NCBI GenBank assembly: GCA_937871815.1
Contig: CALMOJ010000216.1
Coordinates: 1-42,427, forward strand
Direction: 5' to 3'
Source of the DNA: an uncultured Neisseriales bacterium
GTDB taxonomy: Bacteria > Pseudomonadota > Gammaproteobacteria > Burkholderiales > Aquaspirillaceae
Length of the DNA stretch: 42,427 nt
Shown one piece after another: positions 34,611 to 42,427 of the stretch. Below the pieces are notes generated by a model. The model had not been told where the DNA came from, ran no database searches, and was given only the letters and a program-made list of their open reading frames with translations. Numbering within the stretch: position 1 is the stretch's first letter; every line of letters starts with the position of its first letter. Position numbers and translations under genes: made by a program.

Positions 34611-34752
34611 AAGCGGTTTACGATCTGCGAGACTCGGGTGATCCTGCGTTGAAATTCGTAAAAACATGCGTGTGGATTCAAATCCAACGGCGTTTTTTTC
34701 CGAATTTCGCCTTGGCAACCCCTGTGCCATTGAGATCGTAAACAGGCTCTAA
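34607..34752 (+). repeat. Dispersed TIR element between convergent genes (copy J)
   Basis: Core 34610-34749 (140 bp), forward oriented and well preserved: TTTACGATCTGCGAGACTCG on the left and TTGAGATCGTAAACAGGCTC on the right. Its left edge provides the TAG stop of the exported protein and its right edge provides, on the minus strand, the TAG stop of apbE. It fills the entire intergenic space. Confidence 0.95.
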
Positions 34753-35660
34753 GCAGGGGGCTGCCCAAACTGGCCATGTGCATCAATCGTCAGATACATC
34801 AACCCCGTCTGCGCCAAGAAGGCCGCCCCATCTGCGGCTTTGAGCATGGCAATCGTGGTGCAACTGCCTGCCGTAATCGACAGCGGGGCCAGCACGCTCA
34901 CCGACTGCCAGTGCGCCACGGGATAGCCGGTGTGCGGGTTGAGAATGTGACAGTACCGCCGTCCCTTATGTTCAAAAAACCGTTCGTAGTCGCCGCTGGT
35001 CGCCAACGCCCCTGAGCTTACGGGGATGGTGGCAATCACCTGCCCCGCCCGACGGGGGTCTTGAATGCCCACCGCCCACGGCGAACCATCGGGCTGCGGG
35101 CCTATCACCCGCATATCGCCGCCCAAATTCACATAGCCTTGGGTCACGCCCACATCCATCAGCACCGCAGCGGCACGGTCGGCGGCGTACTCCTTGCCAA
35201 AGCCGCCGAAGTCCAGCTCCATGCCGGCCTGTGGCAGCCGAATCCGTGCCCCGTCCCGTTCCACCCGCGCCCAGCCAACCAAATCCAGCAAAGGCTTGAG
35301 ACGGCTGGGGCTGGGCACTTTGGCCTGCTTGAAGTTCCACGCCTGCCGCAGCACGCCAGAGGTGATGTCAAATAGCCCATCGCTCATAGCAAACAGCGAA
35401 CCGGCGTAATCCAGCAGCGACACGGTTTCGGCATCGCACAACACCGCACTTTTGCCGCCTGCCGCCGCGTTGATGCGCGACACCACGCTGTCTGGCCGAT
35501 AGCGAGAATAAGCGTGTTCAATCCGCTTCACCTCGGCAATGGCCAAGTCGGCGTAGCGTTGCGCCGCCGCAGCGGTCGGGGCGTTGAGCTTGACCTCGCA
35601 GCGGCTGGCCATCGCTTCAAACGGCGTGTGAAACAGGGTGGCGGGGGCAGCAATCGACAT
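34749..35660 (-). CDS. apbE: FAD:protein FMN transferase (ApbE family)
   Basis: Flavin transferase that attaches FMN from FAD to Ser/Thr of target proteins. The 303-residue product has ASRCEVKL, the Mg/FAD-site GGFGKEYAADRAA, GYVNLGGDMRV, SGDYERFFEHKGRRYCHILNP followed by HTGYP, and the C-terminal SVLAPLSITAGSCTTIAML block. Unlike most ApbE proteins, no lipobox or signal peptide is seen before MSIAAPATLFHTPFEAMASR; no better upstream start is apparent. AAGGG precedes the ATG. It is the last gene of a four-gene minus-strand operon, 11 bp after the DUF3570 gene. The stop codon is set by repeat copy J. Confidence 0.93.
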   Translation of the reverse strand: MSIAAPATLFHTPFEAMASRCEVKLNAPTAAAAQRYADLAIAEVKRIEHAYSRYRPDSVVSRINAAAGGKSAVLCDAETVSLLDYAGSLFAMSDGLFDITSGVLRQAWNFKQAKVPSPSRLKPLLDLVGWARVERDGARIRLPQAGMELDFGGFGKEYAADRAAAVLMDVGVTQGYVNLGGDMRVIGPQPDGSPWAVGIQDPRRAGQVIATIPVSSGALATSGDYERFFEHKGRRYCHILNPHTGYPVAHWQSVSVLAPLSITAGSCTTIAMLKAADGAAFLAQTGLMYLTIDAHGQFGQPPA

Positions 35661-35671
35661 GGTTTCTGCCC

Positions 35672-36829
35672 TTAAAACAGCCGCGATACGCCAAGCTGAA
35701 TCATGCGGGCATCAAACGGCGCGATGTTTTTGCTGCCCGTTCCAAACACCCGCCACGCGCCGTTTTGTTGGTATTGCTCCACCTTCACATCCATCGACCA
35801 GTCTTTATCCAATTGCTTGGCGACTTTTAGCCCATAGGTGAACGCACCAAAAGCCGACAGCCGTTGGTCTTCGGATACGATTCGGCCTGGGGCATAGTCA
35901 GGCGGCAAGACCGGATAGCCCGAGCCATCGGCTTCGACGTAAAACGAGGCCGCACCTTGGGTATGGAAGCGCAGCATCGGGGTCAGCGTCCAGCCCGAAG
36001 CCAAGGGCTGCACGTATTCGGCGGTCAGGGTGTGGGCTTTGACGTGATAGGTGTCGGTGTAATAGCGATAGCTCAGGCGGGTGGTGCCGTCGGTGCTGTC
36101 CAGATGGTGATTCCAGCGGAGCAGCATGGCCGTTTGGTTGCGATTGCGCGGGCGGTTGTCCAGCAGCTTGTAGGGGTCGGAGTAGTAGCCGGTGCCGTGA
36201 ACATAGGTCAGGTTCAGTTGGGCAATGTCGTTAGGCGACAGCACCTGCGTGACCCCCACCATCAGGTCGGTGATGTTTTTGCGCTCGTTAACCACCACTT
36301 TATTGTTTGGGTTGATTTGGTCACTGGTCAGCCCCAGCCCACCGCTAAACGTGGTGTTTTTGTCTTCGCTGGCAAAGCTGCCTTGGGCGGTAATGCCTCG
36401 CGACACATAGTCGGATTCGGTGGAGTAGCTCGCCCCCAGCGCAAATGTGCCCCGTGGCAAATAGCGGGTCACGGTAAAGTCCCCTGCCTTGCGGTGCTCG
36501 TGGATTTTGAATGGGTTGGGTTCGGCGTGGTAAGCCGGTGACGCACCAGACAGCACGTCGGAAACCAGCGAGCCAGCCACTGACCAGTTTTCACCCACAG
36601 GGGCTAAAACGGCCACAGATGGGGCGTGAACCCAGATGCGATTCCAGCCGGGTTGGCTGTCTTTGTAATCAAGGTATTTCAGCGTAATGCTGCCGCGCTC
36701 GGGCTGGGATTCGGCTTGCGCAAGGGGCGCGAGGGGCAGGCATAGGGCGGCGGTCAGCAGCGCCATGCCCAAGGGGGGCAAGGCGGCGGGGGTGGCGGGT
36801 GCAGTAGGGCAAAGGGGGGTCGAAGTCAT
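35672..36829 (-). CDS. DUF3570 family predicted outer-membrane beta-barrel
   Basis: A 385-residue exported protein with a long N-region and hydrophobic signal (LLTAALCLPLAPLAQAES). The mature chain starts RGSITLKYLDYKDSQPGWNRIWVHAP and is built of alternating beta strands with aromatic girdle residues, ending in ARMIQLGVSRLF. The terminal Phe is typical of outer-membrane barrels. Residues 91-97 read DVLSGAS, similar to ApbE flavinylation motifs (D-x-x-[ST]-G-A-[ST]). The family has no established function that I know. It lies between DUF4266 and apbE on the same strand, which suggests a shared redox role. MTSTPLCP was chosen as the start, with AGGACT upstream. Confidence 0.88.
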   Translation of the reverse strand: MTSTPLCPTAPATPAALPPLGMALLTAALCLPLAPLAQAESQPERGSITLKYLDYKDSQPGWNRIWVHAPSVAVLAPVGENWSVAGSLVSDVLSGASPAYHAEPNPFKIHEHRKAGDFTVTRYLPRGTFALGASYSTESDYVSRGITAQGSFASEDKNTTFSGGLGLTSDQINPNNKVVVNERKNITDLMVGVTQVLSPNDIAQLNLTYVHGTGYYSDPYKLLDNRPRNRNQTAMLLRWNHHLDSTDGTTRLSYRYYTDTYHVKAHTLTAEYVQPLASGWTLTPMLRFHTQGAASFYVEADGSGYPVLPPDYAPGRIVSEDQRLSAFGAFTYGLKVAKQLDKDWSMDVKVEQYQQNGAWRVFGTGSKNIAPFDARMIQLGVSRLF

Positions 36830-36885
36830 GGCGTAGTCCTCAGGCAAAAAGTCGGGGGGTGCGGATGGTGCGCGGCGCGGGGCGT

Positions 36886-37128
36886 TTAGTTACAGCCACA
36901 GCCGCCGCCGCCCACCCCTGCGCCGCCTGACGCGCCTTCTTTGCTGCCATAGATGTGCTCGGTAAATTTGGCATCGAGCTTATCGCCCTCAAACGTCATT
37001 TCAGGGCGAGCCAACGTACCTTTTTCCCACGGCTGCACGGGCTTCACCAGCCCGCAGCCGGCCAATACCATCAATGCGCTAACCGCCAGTACCGCGCGGC
37101 TGAGTGTGGTTTTGGTGATAAAGCGCAT
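36886..37128 (-). CDS. DUF4266 lipoprotein with Cys-Gly-Cys tail
   Basis: An 80-residue lipoprotein with lipobox LAGC (Cys25). Mature residues are VKPVQPWEKGTLARPEMTFEG, then KFTEHIYGSKEGASGG and the terminal GVGGGGCGCN with Cys77 and Cys79. This matches the DUF4266 family as I know it, with the PWE-G-LA-P-M core and Gly-rich CGC end. The tail could be a redox thiol pair, a metal site or a modification site; this is not established. It lies 2 bp after the TlpA-like gene, whose end contains its AGGAG ribosome site, so the two are tightly co-expressed. Confidence 0.88.
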   Translation of the reverse strand: MRFITKTTLSRAVLAVSALMVLAGCGLVKPVQPWEKGTLARPEMTFEGDKLDAKFTEHIYGSKEGASGGAGVGGGGCGCN

Positions 37129-37130
37129 GA

Positions 37131-37649
37131 TTATTTCGCTCCTAAAGCTTGTTGTAAGGTCTTTTCAAGCTCGGCGCGTTGGCCATCATGAAAGCCGGTG
37201 TGTTCGGAAATGATTTTGCCGTCTCGCCCGACCAAAAAGCTGGTGGGCATCCCTTTGACCGCATACAGCCGTGGAGTCGTGCCTTTGGGGTCAAACGCCA
37301 CGGTAAATTGGGCAGGCGTTTCGGCTAAGAATTTGCTGGCATCGGCGGGCTTGGCATCGAGGTTAATCCCGACAACCTGCAAGCCTTGGGCGCGATACTT
37401 GGCCTGCATCGCATTCATCCACGGAAACGACTGACGGCAAGGCCCACACCACGAAGCCCAAAAATCGACATACACCACTTTGCCTTGGTACTGGCTGAGT
37501 TTGAACGTGCCATCGGCACTGGGCAGCTCAATGGCGGGCGCGACCGTGCCTTTGTCGAGGGCCAAAGCGGGCTGGCTTAGGCTGAGGGCGGCGGCAAGGA
37601 TGGCACTACGGCACAGCAATCGGCTAAGGGGGGTGAGGCGGAAAGACAT
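37131..37649 (-). CDS. TlpA-like periplasmic thioredoxin
   Basis: A 172-residue exported thioredoxin-fold protein with a signal peptide (RSAILAAALSLSQPALALD). The active site is WCGPC with Cys68 and Cys71, inside VVYVDFWASWCGPCRQSFPW. The cis-proline loop is GMPTSFLVGRDGK, and the AhpC/TSA-like insertion GINLDAKPADASKFLAE is present. Likely a periplasmic thiol reductant or oxidant. It heads the operon with DUF4266, DUF3570 and apbE, so the DUF4266 Cys pair is a natural candidate substrate. AAGGAG precedes MSFRLTPL; the longer frame lacks a ribosome site. Confidence 0.92.
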   Translation of the reverse strand: MSFRLTPLSRLLCRSAILAAALSLSQPALALDKGTVAPAIELPSADGTFKLSQYQGKVVYVDFWASWCGPCRQSFPWMNAMQAKYRAQGLQVVGINLDAKPADASKFLAETPAQFTVAFDPKGTTPRLYAVKGMPTSFLVGRDGKIISEHTGFHDGQRAELEKTLQQALGAK

Positions 37650-37879
37650 CGCAATCTCCTTGGAAACATCAGGGCGTGGATTGTAGGGGGAAGCCACGCG
37701 GCGGGCGATAGCCCTATCACAGGTGTGGAATTTCTGCACCAGTGTGGCGCGGATGGCTTAATCCAGTCTTACCGTTGGGAATTTTTGCGGGGGGAAGGGA
37801 GGCGATGGGCCGTGTTTGTCTGGTTGTCACCCGACCTCACCGTAACCGCCCCTCGCCCCCCCCTCACCGTGTCATGCCA

Positions 37880-38737
37880 TTACGCCAAAGCACTCAAGCG
37901 GGTGCGGGTGTTTTGCGTATCAGCGGCCACAGCGATCGAAACCCCTGCCGTCGCTTGGTCACGGTACTGCTTCATCAAATCCAAGATGCGCTTAAACACC
38001 AAGGTCTCGCTCTCGCTCTTGCTGCTGTCGGTGGCGGTGGTGCTGTCGGTGCTGGTTGCAGCTGTACTGGTCGTCTTGCTCGTACTCGCCGTGCTGCTAG
38101 TGCTTTGGGTCTTTTGGTCATAGGTCATCGCCTCGGTACGCGAGACTTTGCCATCCCCATTGGTGTCCGCTGCGTCAAAATTGCTGGCCATTTTGCTGGT
38201 CAGTGCGGCCAGTTTGCTGTCGGTAGTGGTGCTGGCGACTTGGGTGAGCTGGTCTTTGCTCATCCCTGCATCGTTATCGCCATCACGGTCACTATCACGG
38301 GGCGGCGGTGGCGGCATCCCACCGGCTTGACCCCCTGCCTGTGCCATCCGCATCGCGTTGAACTGACTATCCAACTCTGCCGCCATTTTCTTCAGATTGG
38401 ACGACATTTCATCCTTGGTGACTTTGCCATCGCCGTTGGTATCCAGCGCCGACAGCACTTGGTCTGCACTGACGCTGGTGTTGGTGTTGGTGCTGCTGGC
38501 GGTTAGACCGGTGCCGCTGGTGCTGGTACTGGCCGTGGTCGTGCTGCTGGTGCTCGTTTTGCTGCTAAGACCCTGCAAGGCATTGGCAAAGTCTGCCGTA
38601 TCCAGATAGCCCTTATTTTGGGTATCGAGCTTAGAAAACAGGTTTTCCGCCATCTTGCTGGGGTCAAGGCGCGGGGGGCGTGTTGTCTGGTTGAGGGCGC
38701 TAGCGTAGCTGCTGGTGCTGCCGATGCTCATAGCCAT
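37880..38737 (-). CDS. EF-hand calcium-binding protein with Ser/Thr-rich linkers
   Basis: A 285-residue protein with four EF-hand-like loops: DTQNKGYLDTAD (38-49, degenerate), DTNGDGKVTKDE (99-110, canonical), DSDRDGDNDAGM (148-159, degenerate) and DTNGDGKVSRTE (191-202, canonical). Between them are low-complexity Ser/Thr/Ala stretches (60-90 and 210-245). No signal peptide or membrane helix is visible, so it is cytoplasmic or exported by a non-Sec route. MAMSIGSTSSY was chosen as the start, with AAGGAG upstream. It is divergent from the CpxR-like regulator, with three GTAAA boxes in between. Confidence 0.87.
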   Translation of the reverse strand: MAMSIGSTSSYASALNQTTRPPRLDPSKMAENLFSKLDTQNKGYLDTADFANALQGLSSKTSTSSTTTASTSTSGTGLTASSTNTNTSVSADQVLSALDTNGDGKVTKDEMSSNLKKMAAELDSQFNAMRMAQAGGQAGGMPPPPPRDSDRDGDNDAGMSKDQLTQVASTTTDSKLAALTSKMASNFDAADTNGDGKVSRTEAMTYDQKTQSTSSTASTSKTTSTAATSTDSTTATDSSKSESETLVFKRILDLMKQYRDQATAGVSIAVAADTQNTRTRLSALA

Positions 38738-38885
38738 GGTAAAGCTCCTTCTTTGGGGGCGACCGGTTGGGGTCTTGCTGGCAAAAACCGTCAAGGTGAC
38801 GGGGCAGGGCGACGTGCCCATTTTGGGGTGCTTGTGTGATGCCCAGATTTTTGCATAAGCCCCAGAATCGAAAATCAAAGTCCAT

Positions 38886-38910
38886 GTAAAGATGGGTAAA
38901 GCTTTGTAAA
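38886..38910. promoter_or_regulatory. Triple GTAAA direct repeat, candidate CpxR boxes
   Basis: GTAAA occurs at 38886-38890, 38896-38900 and 38906-38910, each exactly 10 bp apart with 5-bp spacers. The CpxR consensus in enterobacteria is GTAAA-N5-GTAAA, so this is two overlapping perfect sites. The array lies 82 bp before the CpxR-like gene and about 150 bp before the EF-hand gene, between their divergent starts. Autoregulation of the two-component system and control of the EF-hand gene are inferred. Confidence 0.78.
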
Positions 38911-38991
38911 GGCCCGCGCATTCCCTGCCGCCACCCCCTTGCTGCCCGCTATCATGACTTCCCCCGCCACCGACACCCCGAGCCCGCCACC

Positions 38992-39681
38992 ATGCCCCAC
39001 CTCTTGCTGGTTGATGACGACACCGAACTTGCCGAGCTGCTGCAAGAATATTTGAGCCAAGAAGGCTTTGAAGTCAGCATGGCGCACGATGGCGAAAGCG
39101 GCATTCGGCTGCTGGATGCCACGCCCTATGCCTTGGCCGTGCTGGACGTGATGATGCCGGGGCTCAGCGGCATCGACGTGTTGCGCCACCTGCGTCGCCA
39201 CAGCGATATGCCGGTGATTATGTTGACCGCCAAGGGCGACGACGTGGACCGGATTGTGGGCTTGGAGCTGGGCGCGGATGACTATGTGCCCAAACCCTGT
39301 AGCCCCAGAGAGCTGGTGGCGCGGATTCGCGCAGTCCTGCGGCGGTTTCAGGCGGGCAAAGCCACGGCCAGCAGCCAAGAGGCGCTGGCCGTGGGGGATG
39401 TGCTGCTGGCCCCCGCCCAGCGCACCGCCCATTGGCGAGGTCAGCCGCTAAATTTGACCAGCACCGAATTCAATATCCTGCTGGTGTTGGTGCGGCAGGC
39501 AGGCCAAGTGGTGAGCAAAGCAGAGCTCTCCGAACAAGCCCTTGGGCGCAGCCTCGCCCGCTTTGACCGGAGCTTGGATGTGCATTTAAGCAGCATCCGG
39601 CAAAAGCTCGGCGAGCACCCCGATGGCCAGCCGTGGATACACACCATCCGAGGGGTGGGCTATCAGTGGCGCGGCGCGTAA
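38992..39681 (+). CDS. cpxR: OmpR-family response regulator, CpxR-like
   Basis: A 229-residue regulator. The receiver domain has the acidic pocket VDDD (8-10), the phosphoacceptor Asp52 (LDVMMPG), Thr in MLTAKG and Lys in VPKPCSP. The winged-helix domain contains LTSTEFNILLVLVRQAG, LDVHLSSIRQKLG and TIRGVGYQW. The receiver is CpxR-like (MPHLLLVDDDTELAELLQEYL, ELGADDYVPKPCSPRELVARI). GTAAA boxes upstream support that assignment. The TAA stop is also the edge of repeat copy K. The kinase gene follows, but only after 373 bp. Confidence 0.9.
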   Translation: MPHLLLVDDDTELAELLQEYLSQEGFEVSMAHDGESGIRLLDATPYALAVLDVMMPGLSGIDVLRHLRRHSDMPVIMLTAKGDDVDRIVGLELGADDYVPKPCSPRELVARIRAVLRRFQAGKATASSQEALAVGDVLLAPAQRTAHWRGQPLNLTSTEFNILLVLVRQAGQVVSKAELSEQALGRSLARFDRSLDVHLSSIRQKLGEHPDGQPWIHTIRGVGYQWRGA

Positions 39682-39713
39682 GAACCTGTTTACGATCTGC
39701 GAGACTCGGGTGA
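39679..39713 (+). repeat. Dispersed TIR element, left-end fragment (copy K)
   Basis: TAAGAACCTGTTTACGATCT followed by GCGAGACTCGGGTGA matches the left arm exactly, then homology ends. Its TAA is the stop codon of the response regulator. Confidence 0.9.
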
Positions 39714-40054
39714 GGTGAACGCGGGTTGTGCTTATTGCGCCACTGGTGGCAGCGGGGTTTGGCCGTGATTCCCCTCTTCATCGGAGGAGGCGTGCCCCGT
39801 CGAGGCGGGGTGGTTGGGTTTTGGTTTGGGCTCTGGCAGCGTCGCCACCAACCACCCCGTCCGGCTGCACCGTCGCCCCCCCCTTCGCCGAAGGGGAATA
39901 ACAGCCCGTCGGCGAAGGGGCGCGGTGTGGTAGGTCGGACTTCAGCCCGATAGCGGAGGGCATCCCACGGCAACGGCGCATTTAGCGTGGCGAACCGCTG
40001 GGGCGGCAGGAATGCGCGGCGCGGCATGAGCCAGCAGGCAAAAAAGGAAGACAC
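39714..40054. other. Structured spacer between response regulator and kinase genes
   Basis: This 341-bp stretch has no credible gene. It holds a perfect 12-bp inverted repeat, CGGGGTGGTTGG (39806-39817) with its complement at 39848-39859. A second block can fold two ways: CCCCTTC (39880-39886) with GAAGGGG (39890-39896), or CCCCTTCGCCGA (39880-39891) with TCGGCGAAGGGG (39909-39920). A partial repeat lies at its left edge, so part of it may be insertion debris. AAGGAAG near 40044-40050 serves the kinase start. Confidence 0.6.
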
Positions 40055-41473
40055 ATGGGACGGTTGTTCTGGAAGTTTTTTATCGCGTTTTGGCTGGCAC
40101 TGTTGCTGACGGCGGGTTTGGCGGGGAGCTTGGTTTGGCTCAGCCACGCCCAAGAAAACGAAACCCATACCGACCCCTTCACCCGAGAGCAGCTGACCAT
40201 TGTCGCCAGTATTTTGCGCACCGCTGGCGGTGACAGCCTGCGCCAGATGCTGCCCAGCTGGACGCACCGTGGCCGCCCCACGCCGATTTTTGTGGTGGAT
40301 GCCCACGGCCAAGAGCTGATGAACCGCCCCCTTCCCCCCGAGAAACTGGCGCAAGCACGCCGCCTTGCCGACCTGAATCAGCCCGAGAGTGCCGCCCGCT
40401 GGTTGCCGACCCGCGACGGCGAAACGTACTTGGTTTTTGTCCATGCCACCGATGCACACCGCCCCCCGTTTGACGGGATTTTTTCGCTAGGCGGGAGGCA
40501 TCAGCCACCGTCTGCGCCGCCGCCCTATCGACCCCATGTGCCGTGGCGGCATATTGTGGCGGGGCTCTTGGTCAGCCTTGGTTTTAGTGTCGTACTGGCA
40601 TGGTATGTGGTTAGCCCCATCCGTCAGCTACGCCAAGCGGTCAAATCCGTGGCAGCGGGGCAGCTGGATACCCGTGTCTCGCCACGGATGGGACGGCGGC
40701 GGGATGAGCTGGGCGAGCTGGGGCAGGACTTTGATGCCATGACCCAGCAGCTCGAGACCCTGATTGGGGCACAACGCCGCCTGCTGCACGATGTCTCGCA
40801 CGAGCTGCGTTCCCCCTTGGCGCGGCTCCACGTTGCCATTGGGCTGATTGCCCAAACACCGGACAAATTGCCCACCATGCTGACCCGATTAGAGCGCGAA
40901 ATTGGGCGGCTCGACACGCTGGTGGGCGAAGTGCTGACCTTGGCACGGCTGGAATCGGGTATGCCGCACGCCCCCGCCGAAGCCTTTGATGGCGTGGCAC
41001 TGTTGGAAGACCTGCTGGCCGATGCCCAGTTTGAAGCCGAAGCGCAGGGGCTTTCCCTCTGCTACCAAGGCGCGACCGAAGCCCCGCTGCATGGTCAACC
41101 TGCCCTGCTGGCGCGGGCTTTTGAAAACGTGATACGCAATGCCATCAAATACAGCCCTGCCCACGGCGTGGTCACCATCGAAAGCCACCTCGACCGCCAC
41201 TGTCGGAGTTGGGTGGTGTCGGTATCGGATACGGGAGACGGCGTACCCGAAGACACCTTGCCACTGATTTTTAGGGCATTTTACCGTGGCAGCCCGCCGC
41301 CGCCCCGCCCTGATGCGCCGCCCTCACCCTCTGCCAGCAACCCCGCTGGCTACGGATTGGGACTGGCGATTGCCGAGCGTGCTTTGGCTACCCACGGCGG
41401 CACGATGCACGCAAAAAACCGCCCAGAAGGCGGTTTGGTGGTGGTGATGCGTGTGCCCTTGGCGGGGCGATGA
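40055..41473 (+). CDS. cpxA: Sensor histidine kinase, CpxA-like
   Basis: A 472-residue membrane kinase. TM1 is at about residues 7-29 (FFIAFWLALLLTAGLAGSLVW). A periplasmic sensor of about 135 residues follows, ending in a Pro-rich stretch. TM2 lies near 167-187 (IVAGLLVSLGFSVVLAWYVV), then a HAMP domain (SPIRQLRQAVKSVAAGQLDTRV). The phosphoacceptor is His249 in HDVSHELRSPLARL. ATP-binding motifs are N (ENVIRNAIKYSP), G1 (VSDTGDGVPE), F and G2 (GYGLGLAIAERAL). It is the evident partner of the CpxR-like regulator, although separated from it by a partial repeat and a structured spacer. Confidence 0.92.
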   Translation: MGRLFWKFFIAFWLALLLTAGLAGSLVWLSHAQENETHTDPFTREQLTIVASILRTAGGDSLRQMLPSWTHRGRPTPIFVVDAHGQELMNRPLPPEKLAQARRLADLNQPESAARWLPTRDGETYLVFVHATDAHRPPFDGIFSLGGRHQPPSAPPPYRPHVPWRHIVAGLLVSLGFSVVLAWYVVSPIRQLRQAVKSVAAGQLDTRVSPRMGRRRDELGELGQDFDAMTQQLETLIGAQRRLLHDVSHELRSPLARLHVAIGLIAQTPDKLPTMLTRLEREIGRLDTLVGEVLTLARLESGMPHAPAEAFDGVALLEDLLADAQFEAEAQGLSLCYQGATEAPLHGQPALLARAFENVIRNAIKYSPAHGVVTIESHLDRHCRSWVVSVSDTGDGVPEDTLPLIFRAFYRGSPPPPRPDAPPSPSASNPAGYGLGLAIAERALATHGGTMHAKNRPEGGLVVVMRVPLAGR

Positions 41474-41480
41474 AGGGGGG

Positions 41481-42317
41481 CTACAACGTGCGAATCACAC
41501 TACGCACCACGCCCAATATCTGCAAATCCTGCTCCGGCAGCAGCGTGAGCGGCGCGTAGGCGGCGTTTTCGGGGCACAACTGCACTTGGTCGCCGCGCAG
41601 TGCCAGCCGCTTCACCGTTAATTCCCCCTCGATGGCGGCCACCACAATTTTGCCGTGGACAGGCGGCAAGGTGCGGTCCACCAGCAGCATATCGCCCTCT
41701 TCGATACCGGCACCCTGCATCGAATCTCCTTTGACCTTGACCATAAACGTGGCTTCGCGATGCGGAATCAGGTGGGTGTTCAGGTCAATTACATCCTCCA
41801 CCGCATCGTCAGCCAATAGCGGCGAGCCCGCAGGGACGGTGTGGCTATACAGCGGCAGAGAGGGCGGAATAGCGGTTGGGGCGGCGGGCAGCCATGCCCC
41901 CAAATCATGCAACAGCGTCCGGTCTGCCGCCGATAGCAGTACCCGTTGCCGTGTGTCGTTCAGGGCACGCAAAAGCTGCAATTGCTGATATTCGACCGGT
42001 TTCAGTGCCACATACTTCACCCCCCGTGCCGCGCGTGAACGGGCTTGGCGCAGGGTGGCCAATAAGCGGCGGCGGCAGTCGGTGCTGAGATGGGCATCGA
42101 CCCATTCTGCAGCGGGGTGGGGCGTGGCAGCAGAGGGCGGCGCAAGGCCAAGCAGGGCGGTGCGGGCGGCTTCTGCCTCGGTTTTGACCGTCAACCGCCC
42201 TGTGGTCAGGCCGGTCAGCAAACGTTCCCGCAGCGCGGCTTCATTCCACTGGTAATGGACGGGCAAAGCCGCTGGGGCAGCATCCGAGGGGGAAGGCGGG
42301 GCGGATACAGTGGGCAT
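41481..42317 (-). CDS. S24 (UmuD/LexA-type) self-cleaving protein with extended N-terminus
   Basis: A 278-residue protein whose last 115 residues are a UmuD/LexA-type serine-lysine peptidase. The predicted cleavage site is Ala163-Gly164 (VPAGSPL), the nucleophile is Ser199 (GDSMQG) and the base is Lys236 (LTVKRL). Spacings Gly-Ser (35) and Ser-Lys (37) equal those of E. coli UmuD (25-60-97). The first 160 residues are not the short UmuD arm; they are helical and basic (CRRRLLATLRQARSRAARGVKYVALKP) with no helix-turn-helix I can confirm. No umuC or imuB is adjacent. It could be an SOS-type repressor or a UmuD variant. Convergent with cpxA, 7 bp apart. Confidence 0.85.
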   Translation of the reverse strand: MPTVSAPPSPSDAAPAALPVHYQWNEAALRERLLTGLTTGRLTVKTEAEAARTALLGLAPPSAATPHPAAEWVDAHLSTDCRRRLLATLRQARSRAARGVKYVALKPVEYQQLQLLRALNDTRQRVLLSAADRTLLHDLGAWLPAAPTAIPPSLPLYSHTVPAGSPLLADDAVEDVIDLNTHLIPHREATFMVKVKGDSMQGAGIEEGDMLLVDRTLPPVHGKIVVAAIEGELTVKRLALRGDQVQLCPENAAYAPLTLLPEQDLQILGVVRSVIRTL

Positions 42318-42412: not shown

Positions 42413-42427
42413 TGAGAACCTGTTTAC
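42413..42427 (+). repeat. Dispersed TIR element, left-end fragment (copy L)
   Basis: The window closes with TGA-GAACCTGTTTAC, the first bases of the same element, cut by the window end. The flanking trinucleotide is TGA, again of TNA form. Confidence 0.8.

Follow-up and report, generated by a model that had tools for sequence, protein, structure and literature searches.

What does a perfect run of three GTAAA words control when it lies between the genes of a CpxRA-like two-component system and a divergently oriented gene for an EF-hand protein? GTAAA boxes are the textbook signature of CpxR binding. A motif of the form GTAAA-N5-6-GTAAA has been published for this regulator (PMC9600279), and the CpxR site, the position of cpxP as both neighbor and target, the need for a phosphorylatable Asp, and the interaction of CpxP with CpxA have all been described (PMC9600279, PMC5063474, PMC2912261, PMC4160245). 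The window, as we call the whole stretch of DNA that was analyzed, comprises 42,427 nucleotides from an uncultured Neisseriales bacterium, and we followed its box through the organism's own genome, through orthologous cpxR loci, and through relatives of the EF-hand gene.

A genome-unique triple box conserved beside orthologous cpxR genes

The preliminary description of this locus had reported three GTAAA words at an exact 10-bp period between the EF-hand gene and the CpxRA-like genes, in a divergent region. Both observations were confirmed: the words occupy 38886–38890, 38896–38900, and 38906–38910 of the plus strand, the EF-hand coding sequence runs from 37880 to 38737 on the minus strand, and the regulator gene from 38992 to 39681 on the plus strand. 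Together the words make up a predicted triple CpxR box, GTAAA-N5-GTAAA-N5-GTAAA (38886–38910, plus strand), whose true repeat unit is GTAAAG, as a G follows every GTAAA. By shuffling, the window is expected to hold 0.92 GTAAA pairs with at most one mismatch and 0.43 triples with at most three mismatches; the pair and the triple observed are exact. When we scanned the organism's own genome (2.34 Mb, 99.8% complete) for exact GTAAA-N5-GTAAA pairs we found eight, only two of which overlap, so the triple of the window is the sole exact one in that genome. The reversed control pattern matched once. The genome has five more OmpR-family regulator genes, all without an adjoining GTAAA pair. Two of the other exact pairs are near gene starts and the rest are intragenic or at the end of a gene; as most pairs are not at gene starts, no convincing set of genes for a wider regulon could be drawn from them.

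The earlier proposal had been made to depend on conservation of the boxes beside orthologous cpxR genes, and conserved they are. Among 80 orthologous cpxR loci (L058–L137), mostly from beta- and gammaproteobacteria, 69 have a GTAAA-N5-GTAAA pair in the 250 bp that precede the regulator gene, in a single orientation. The pair was found on the opposite strand upstream of cpxR in none of the 80, control words gave zero to one match at the same loci, and only 16 of 2306 control 250-bp windows from these loci (0.7%) contained a pair. Ten of the 80 loci have the exact triple with spacers of five and five, and most of the 11 that are without an exact pair have a one-mismatch version of it. The cpxR-cpxP intergenic region of E. 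coli contains GTAAAACAACGTAAA, in the same orientation as the pair of the window. A genome of the same genus as ours has one GTAAA pair at cpxR and one at the EF-hand gene.

Promoter elements on both sides of the box

On the cpxR side, the last GTAAA begins 44 bp from a predicted −10 element, TATCAT (38950–38955, plus strand), which has no −35 match and would put the start of transcription at about 38962; the genome of the same genus has the same element at the same 44-bp spacing. This arrangement recurs at the orthologous loci, where a TATNAT-like −10 lies 32–33, 42–45, or 52–55 bp from the last GTAAA in 58 of 61 cases (59 of 70 loci), and where no conserved −35 was found in the cpxR promoters. 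The distance from box to −10 is strongly phased, with a Rayleigh p of ~1e-18 at a period of 10.5–11 bp.

The best −10 that the window offers in the leftward direction is AAAAAT (38847–38852, minus strand), the predicted −10 of the EF-hand promoter, which matches at only four of six positions, lies 38 bp from the leftmost box, and would put the start of transcription at about 38840. A −10 at this very offset was found on the divergent side of 21 of 70 loci, the window included, and over these 70 loci it is the only enriched divergent offset, the others averaging 0.87 and never exceeding 4; the 38-bp signal is weak in the few EF-hand loci alone and clear over all 70. In the window the boxes are ~149–173 bp from the EF-hand ATG. 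Divergent CpxR-box promoters of betaproteobacteria often have an extra TTTAC at 21 bp, which in many cpxP-type loci lies 17 bp from the −10. The window does not have it, and this absence is what most weakens the argument that the EF-hand gene is controlled at this locus. The helical-turn steps (33, 44, and 54 bp) on one side and the 38 bp on the other provide a predictive rule for betaproteobacterial CpxR promoters.

An EF-hand protein in the position of CpxP

The divergent gene (37880–38737, minus strand) codes for a protein of 285 aa, assigned from its Pfam EF-hand families, its EF loops, and an alignment of the family (A2). We placed its start at the ATG at 38737, which is preceded by AAGGAG, and rejected as over-long an ORF of 332 aa beginning at 38878. 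Canonical 12-residue DxDxDG loops are present at residues 99–110 and 191–202, and, a weak dockerin match aside, all Pfam matches are to EF-hand families. An AlphaFold model, whose confidence is low to moderate (mean pLDDT 67), contains helix-loop-helix segments. The N-terminus is not hydrophobic and has no signal peptide, and Pfam gave no LTXXQ (PF07813) match in the protein; on these two grounds, although it holds the position of cpxP, the gene does not code for a CpxP. Nor did we accept it as XopAW (NF041410), which is the best curated model, yet at 54.5 bits falls short of its cut-off of 120; the protein of the window shows no sign of being an injected effector, and its family is tied to two-component systems. 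The aligned family members (A2) also have no signal peptide, and most end in LS-x-x-A after a conserved helix. This C-terminus is a possible export signal, so export without a signal peptide stays an alternative to a cytosolic location.

The only LTXXQ match in the organism's own genome is a methionine-rich protein (C56:6288–6566, L214), which we rejected as its Cpx-linked CpxP: the gene lies outside the cpx locus, and no GTAAA pair accompanies it. Directly downstream of the EF-hand gene there is a cluster on the minus strand (34749–37739) for an ApbE flavin transferase, DUF3570 and DUF4266 proteins, and a TlpA/ResA-like thioredoxin.

EF-hand genes retain CpxR-type boxes away from cpxR

A CpxP-type protein is the usual divergent partner of cpxR. 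The first divergent ORFs at the cpxR loci, which were picked mechanically so that the counts are approximate, matched LTXXQ in 33 cases and Metal_resist in 31, both CpxP-type, followed by EF-hand families in 11 (the window included), outer-membrane efflux proteins in eight, and M48 peptidases in five. An EF-hand gene thus occupies the slot in the window and in about ten other loci, and at some cpxR loci it is found farther upstream or behind another gene. Azonexus, Sulfuricella, and Methylobacillus are relatives that share the layout of the window. A profile search recovered the family in 39 of 399 genomes of the order, and a class-wide search in only two further genomes. OmpR-family regulator genes are within ~4 kb at 32 of 37 sampled EF-hand loci: the linked gene is cpxR in 17 cases and that of a different member of the family in 15, and the remaining five loci show no such link in the DNA retrieved. 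In the second group (L185, L195–L202, L207–L212) the gene adjoins OmpR/EnvZ-type systems, either divergently or downstream of the kinase gene, and the eight non-Cpx regulators that were scanned all matched best as OmpR, two of them above the curated cut-off.

Since a box shared by divergent cpxR and EF-hand genes is not independent evidence for control of the latter, we examined EF-hand genes that are displaced or separately boxed. Sixteen such genes from CpxR lineages (displaced, co-directional, or with a second box of their own) were compiled by hand; some of their start codons are uncertain and the related species are not fully independent. With one mismatch allowed, 14 of the 16 have a TTTAC-N5-TTTAC pair of their own within 260 bp, always in one orientation; seven of these pairs are exact, and the others read TTAAC in the deviating half-site. 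A pair of this type, with the same tolerance, occurs in 0.6% of random windows and at none of the 15 EF-hand genes beside OmpR-type regulators (Fisher p 5e-7). The EF-hand gene at L206 has a perfect triple; cpxR is absent from the 4 kb around it, and no other regulator gene is nearby.

These results weigh directly on the reading in which the box serves cpxR autoregulation alone and the EF-hand gene is a bystander, transcribed constitutively from a promoter of its own. The orientation of the box and the spacing of TATCAT do suit cpxR best, and the EF-hand side of the window has no second, promoter-proximal box. We nevertheless consider a bystander unlikely, because displaced EF-hand genes keep CpxR-type boxes that are missing beside other regulators and because the AAAAAT of the window sits on the conserved 38-bp offset. 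The spacing of the −10 elements, the boxes owned by displaced genes, and their absence beside OmpR-type systems make dual control well supported computationally, and the suggestion of the preliminary description that phosphorylated CpxR could govern both its own gene and the EF-hand gene gains support from all three. We conclude that the triple box is probably the operator for dual transcriptional control of cpxRA and the EF-hand gene.

The regulator and kinase are of the CpxR and CpxA type

The regulator (38992–39681, plus strand; 229 aa) has the receiver and winged-helix output domains of the OmpR family (Response_reg and Trans_reg_C), and its phosphorylatable Asp, D52, is invariant in alignment A3. 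The CpxR model (NF008199) comes out on top of about 100 family models with 250.9 bits, short of the curated equivalog cut-off of 341 bits; this model is presumably centred on enteric sequences. Identity to E. coli CpxR is 50%, with strong conservation of the DNA-binding region. We also built a maximum-likelihood tree that included E. coli OmpR, PhoB, BaeR, CreB, RstA, ArcA, and CpxR, other OmpR-type regulators of the organism's own genome, and regulators adjoining EF-hand genes elsewhere. The regulator of the window falls within a group of 16 orthologues (support 99/96), which is joined to E. coli CpxR with moderate support (92/66). Downstream, a gene for a sensor histidine kinase of 472 aa (40055–41473, plus strand) adjoins cpxR and has the layout of CpxA, with HAMP, HisKA, and HATPase_c domains; its top NCBIfam models are those of CpxA, at 246.8 and 217.4 bits, below their cut-offs.

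The regulator could in principle be another OmpR-family reader of GTAAA that is functionally not CpxR, for example that of a metal or redox system, a reading to which the missed cut-offs of both proteins, the 50% identity to E. coli CpxR, and a kinase sensor domain that has no assignment lend some weight. We regard it as quite improbable, given that the best models for regulator and kinase are nonetheless CpxR and CpxA, that the tree places the regulator with E. coli CpxR and not with OmpR, PhoB, BaeR, or RstA, and that cpxP-type genes are neighbors at many of the orthologous loci. The designation as a CpxRA-like system therefore held, and the identification of the regulator as CpxR is supported by its sequence, the tree, its partner kinase, and the layout of the locus. 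That the triple is a functionless chance repeat can be dismissed: the words are short and the genome has other GTAAA pairs, some of them intragenic, but the conservation of the pair at 69 of 80 orthologous loci, in fixed spacing and orientation, has already refuted it, and the phased −10 elements speak against it as well.

The cpxR-cpxA gap (39682–40054) contains an interspersed repeat with ~50 matches in the organism's own genome; in most relatives only a few bp separate the two genes. One motif, GAACCTGTTTAC, is seen again at the end of the window (42416–42427). Beyond the kinase gene, a UmuD/LexA-type S24 peptidase is encoded at 41481–42317, with an N-terminal extension of ~150 aa that has no family match.

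A model for dual control and its relation to known Cpx systems

Regulators of the OmpR family dimerize head to tail on tandem half-sites. We infer that phosphorylated CpxR would occupy adjacent GTAAA half-sites, all facing the same side of the helix, and activate transcription in both directions. To the right it would recruit polymerase to the TATCAT element and raise expression of cpxRA, in positive autoregulation; to the left, recruitment to AAAAAT would raise expression of the EF-hand gene. Boxes 2 and 3 may serve cpxR and boxes 1 and 2 the EF-hand gene or, alternatively, three regulator subunits may sit on the triple together. The EF-hand protein would bind Ca2+ in vivo, and Cpx signaling may be subject to feedback from it.

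Like the window, the Cpx locus of E. coli has a regulator-kinase pair, a divergent partner gene, and GTAAA-N5-GTAAA in the same orientation. Unlike the window, it has two boxes instead of three, has no repeat between the regulator and kinase genes, and its divergent product is the periplasmic LTXXQ protein CpxP, in place of an EF-hand protein without a signal peptide. Outside the enteric bacteria, cpxR of Pseudomonas aeruginosa also has cpxP as its neighbor, with a conserved box there, and the phosphorylatable Asp was shown to be required (PMC5063474); the partner is likewise an LTXXQ protein, in contrast to the EF-hand protein of the window. Sinorhizobium meliloti has GTAAAN5GTAAA upstream of the CpxP-CpxR-CpxA-like locus SMb21562-21561-21560 (PMC2912261), where, unlike in the window, the genes are a predicted operon with SMb21562 as the CpxP-like gene and no EF-hand protein has been reported. 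EfhP (PA4107) of P. aeruginosa, comparable by description, is an EF-hand protein linked to calcium and stress responses, and the abstract of its report (PMC4053335) showed no link to CpxR. In the open-access literature, judged from titles and abstracts, CpxR and EF-hand occur together only in unrelated co-mentions, and on that basis an EF-hand protein without a signal peptide appears to be unreported as a recurrent Cpx target. The boxes themselves are ordinary for a Cpx system; what stands out is that an EF-hand gene takes the place of cpxP and has boxes of its own when displaced.

What the protein does there can be suggested only tentatively. The most economical reading, which we hold at somewhat less than an even chance, is that it acts as a cytosolic Ca2+ sensor or buffer made during envelope damage. 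The presence of the family beside OmpR/EnvZ-type systems suggests that it functions in envelope sensing more generally, and it is conceivable, if rather doubtful, that the family is a calcium-dependent accessory factor of betaproteobacterial envelope-sensing two-component systems that couples cytosolic Ca2+ to envelope stress, as a CpxP-like partner of CpxRA in some lineages and of OmpR/EnvZ-type systems in others. Calcium signaling in bacteria is poorly tied to known stress pathways, and a defined, conserved promoter that would place an EF-hand protein, in the slot of CpxP, under the Cpx regulator offers a directly testable link between the two; if the dual control is real, the protein would be a component of the bacterial envelope-stress response that has so far been overlooked.
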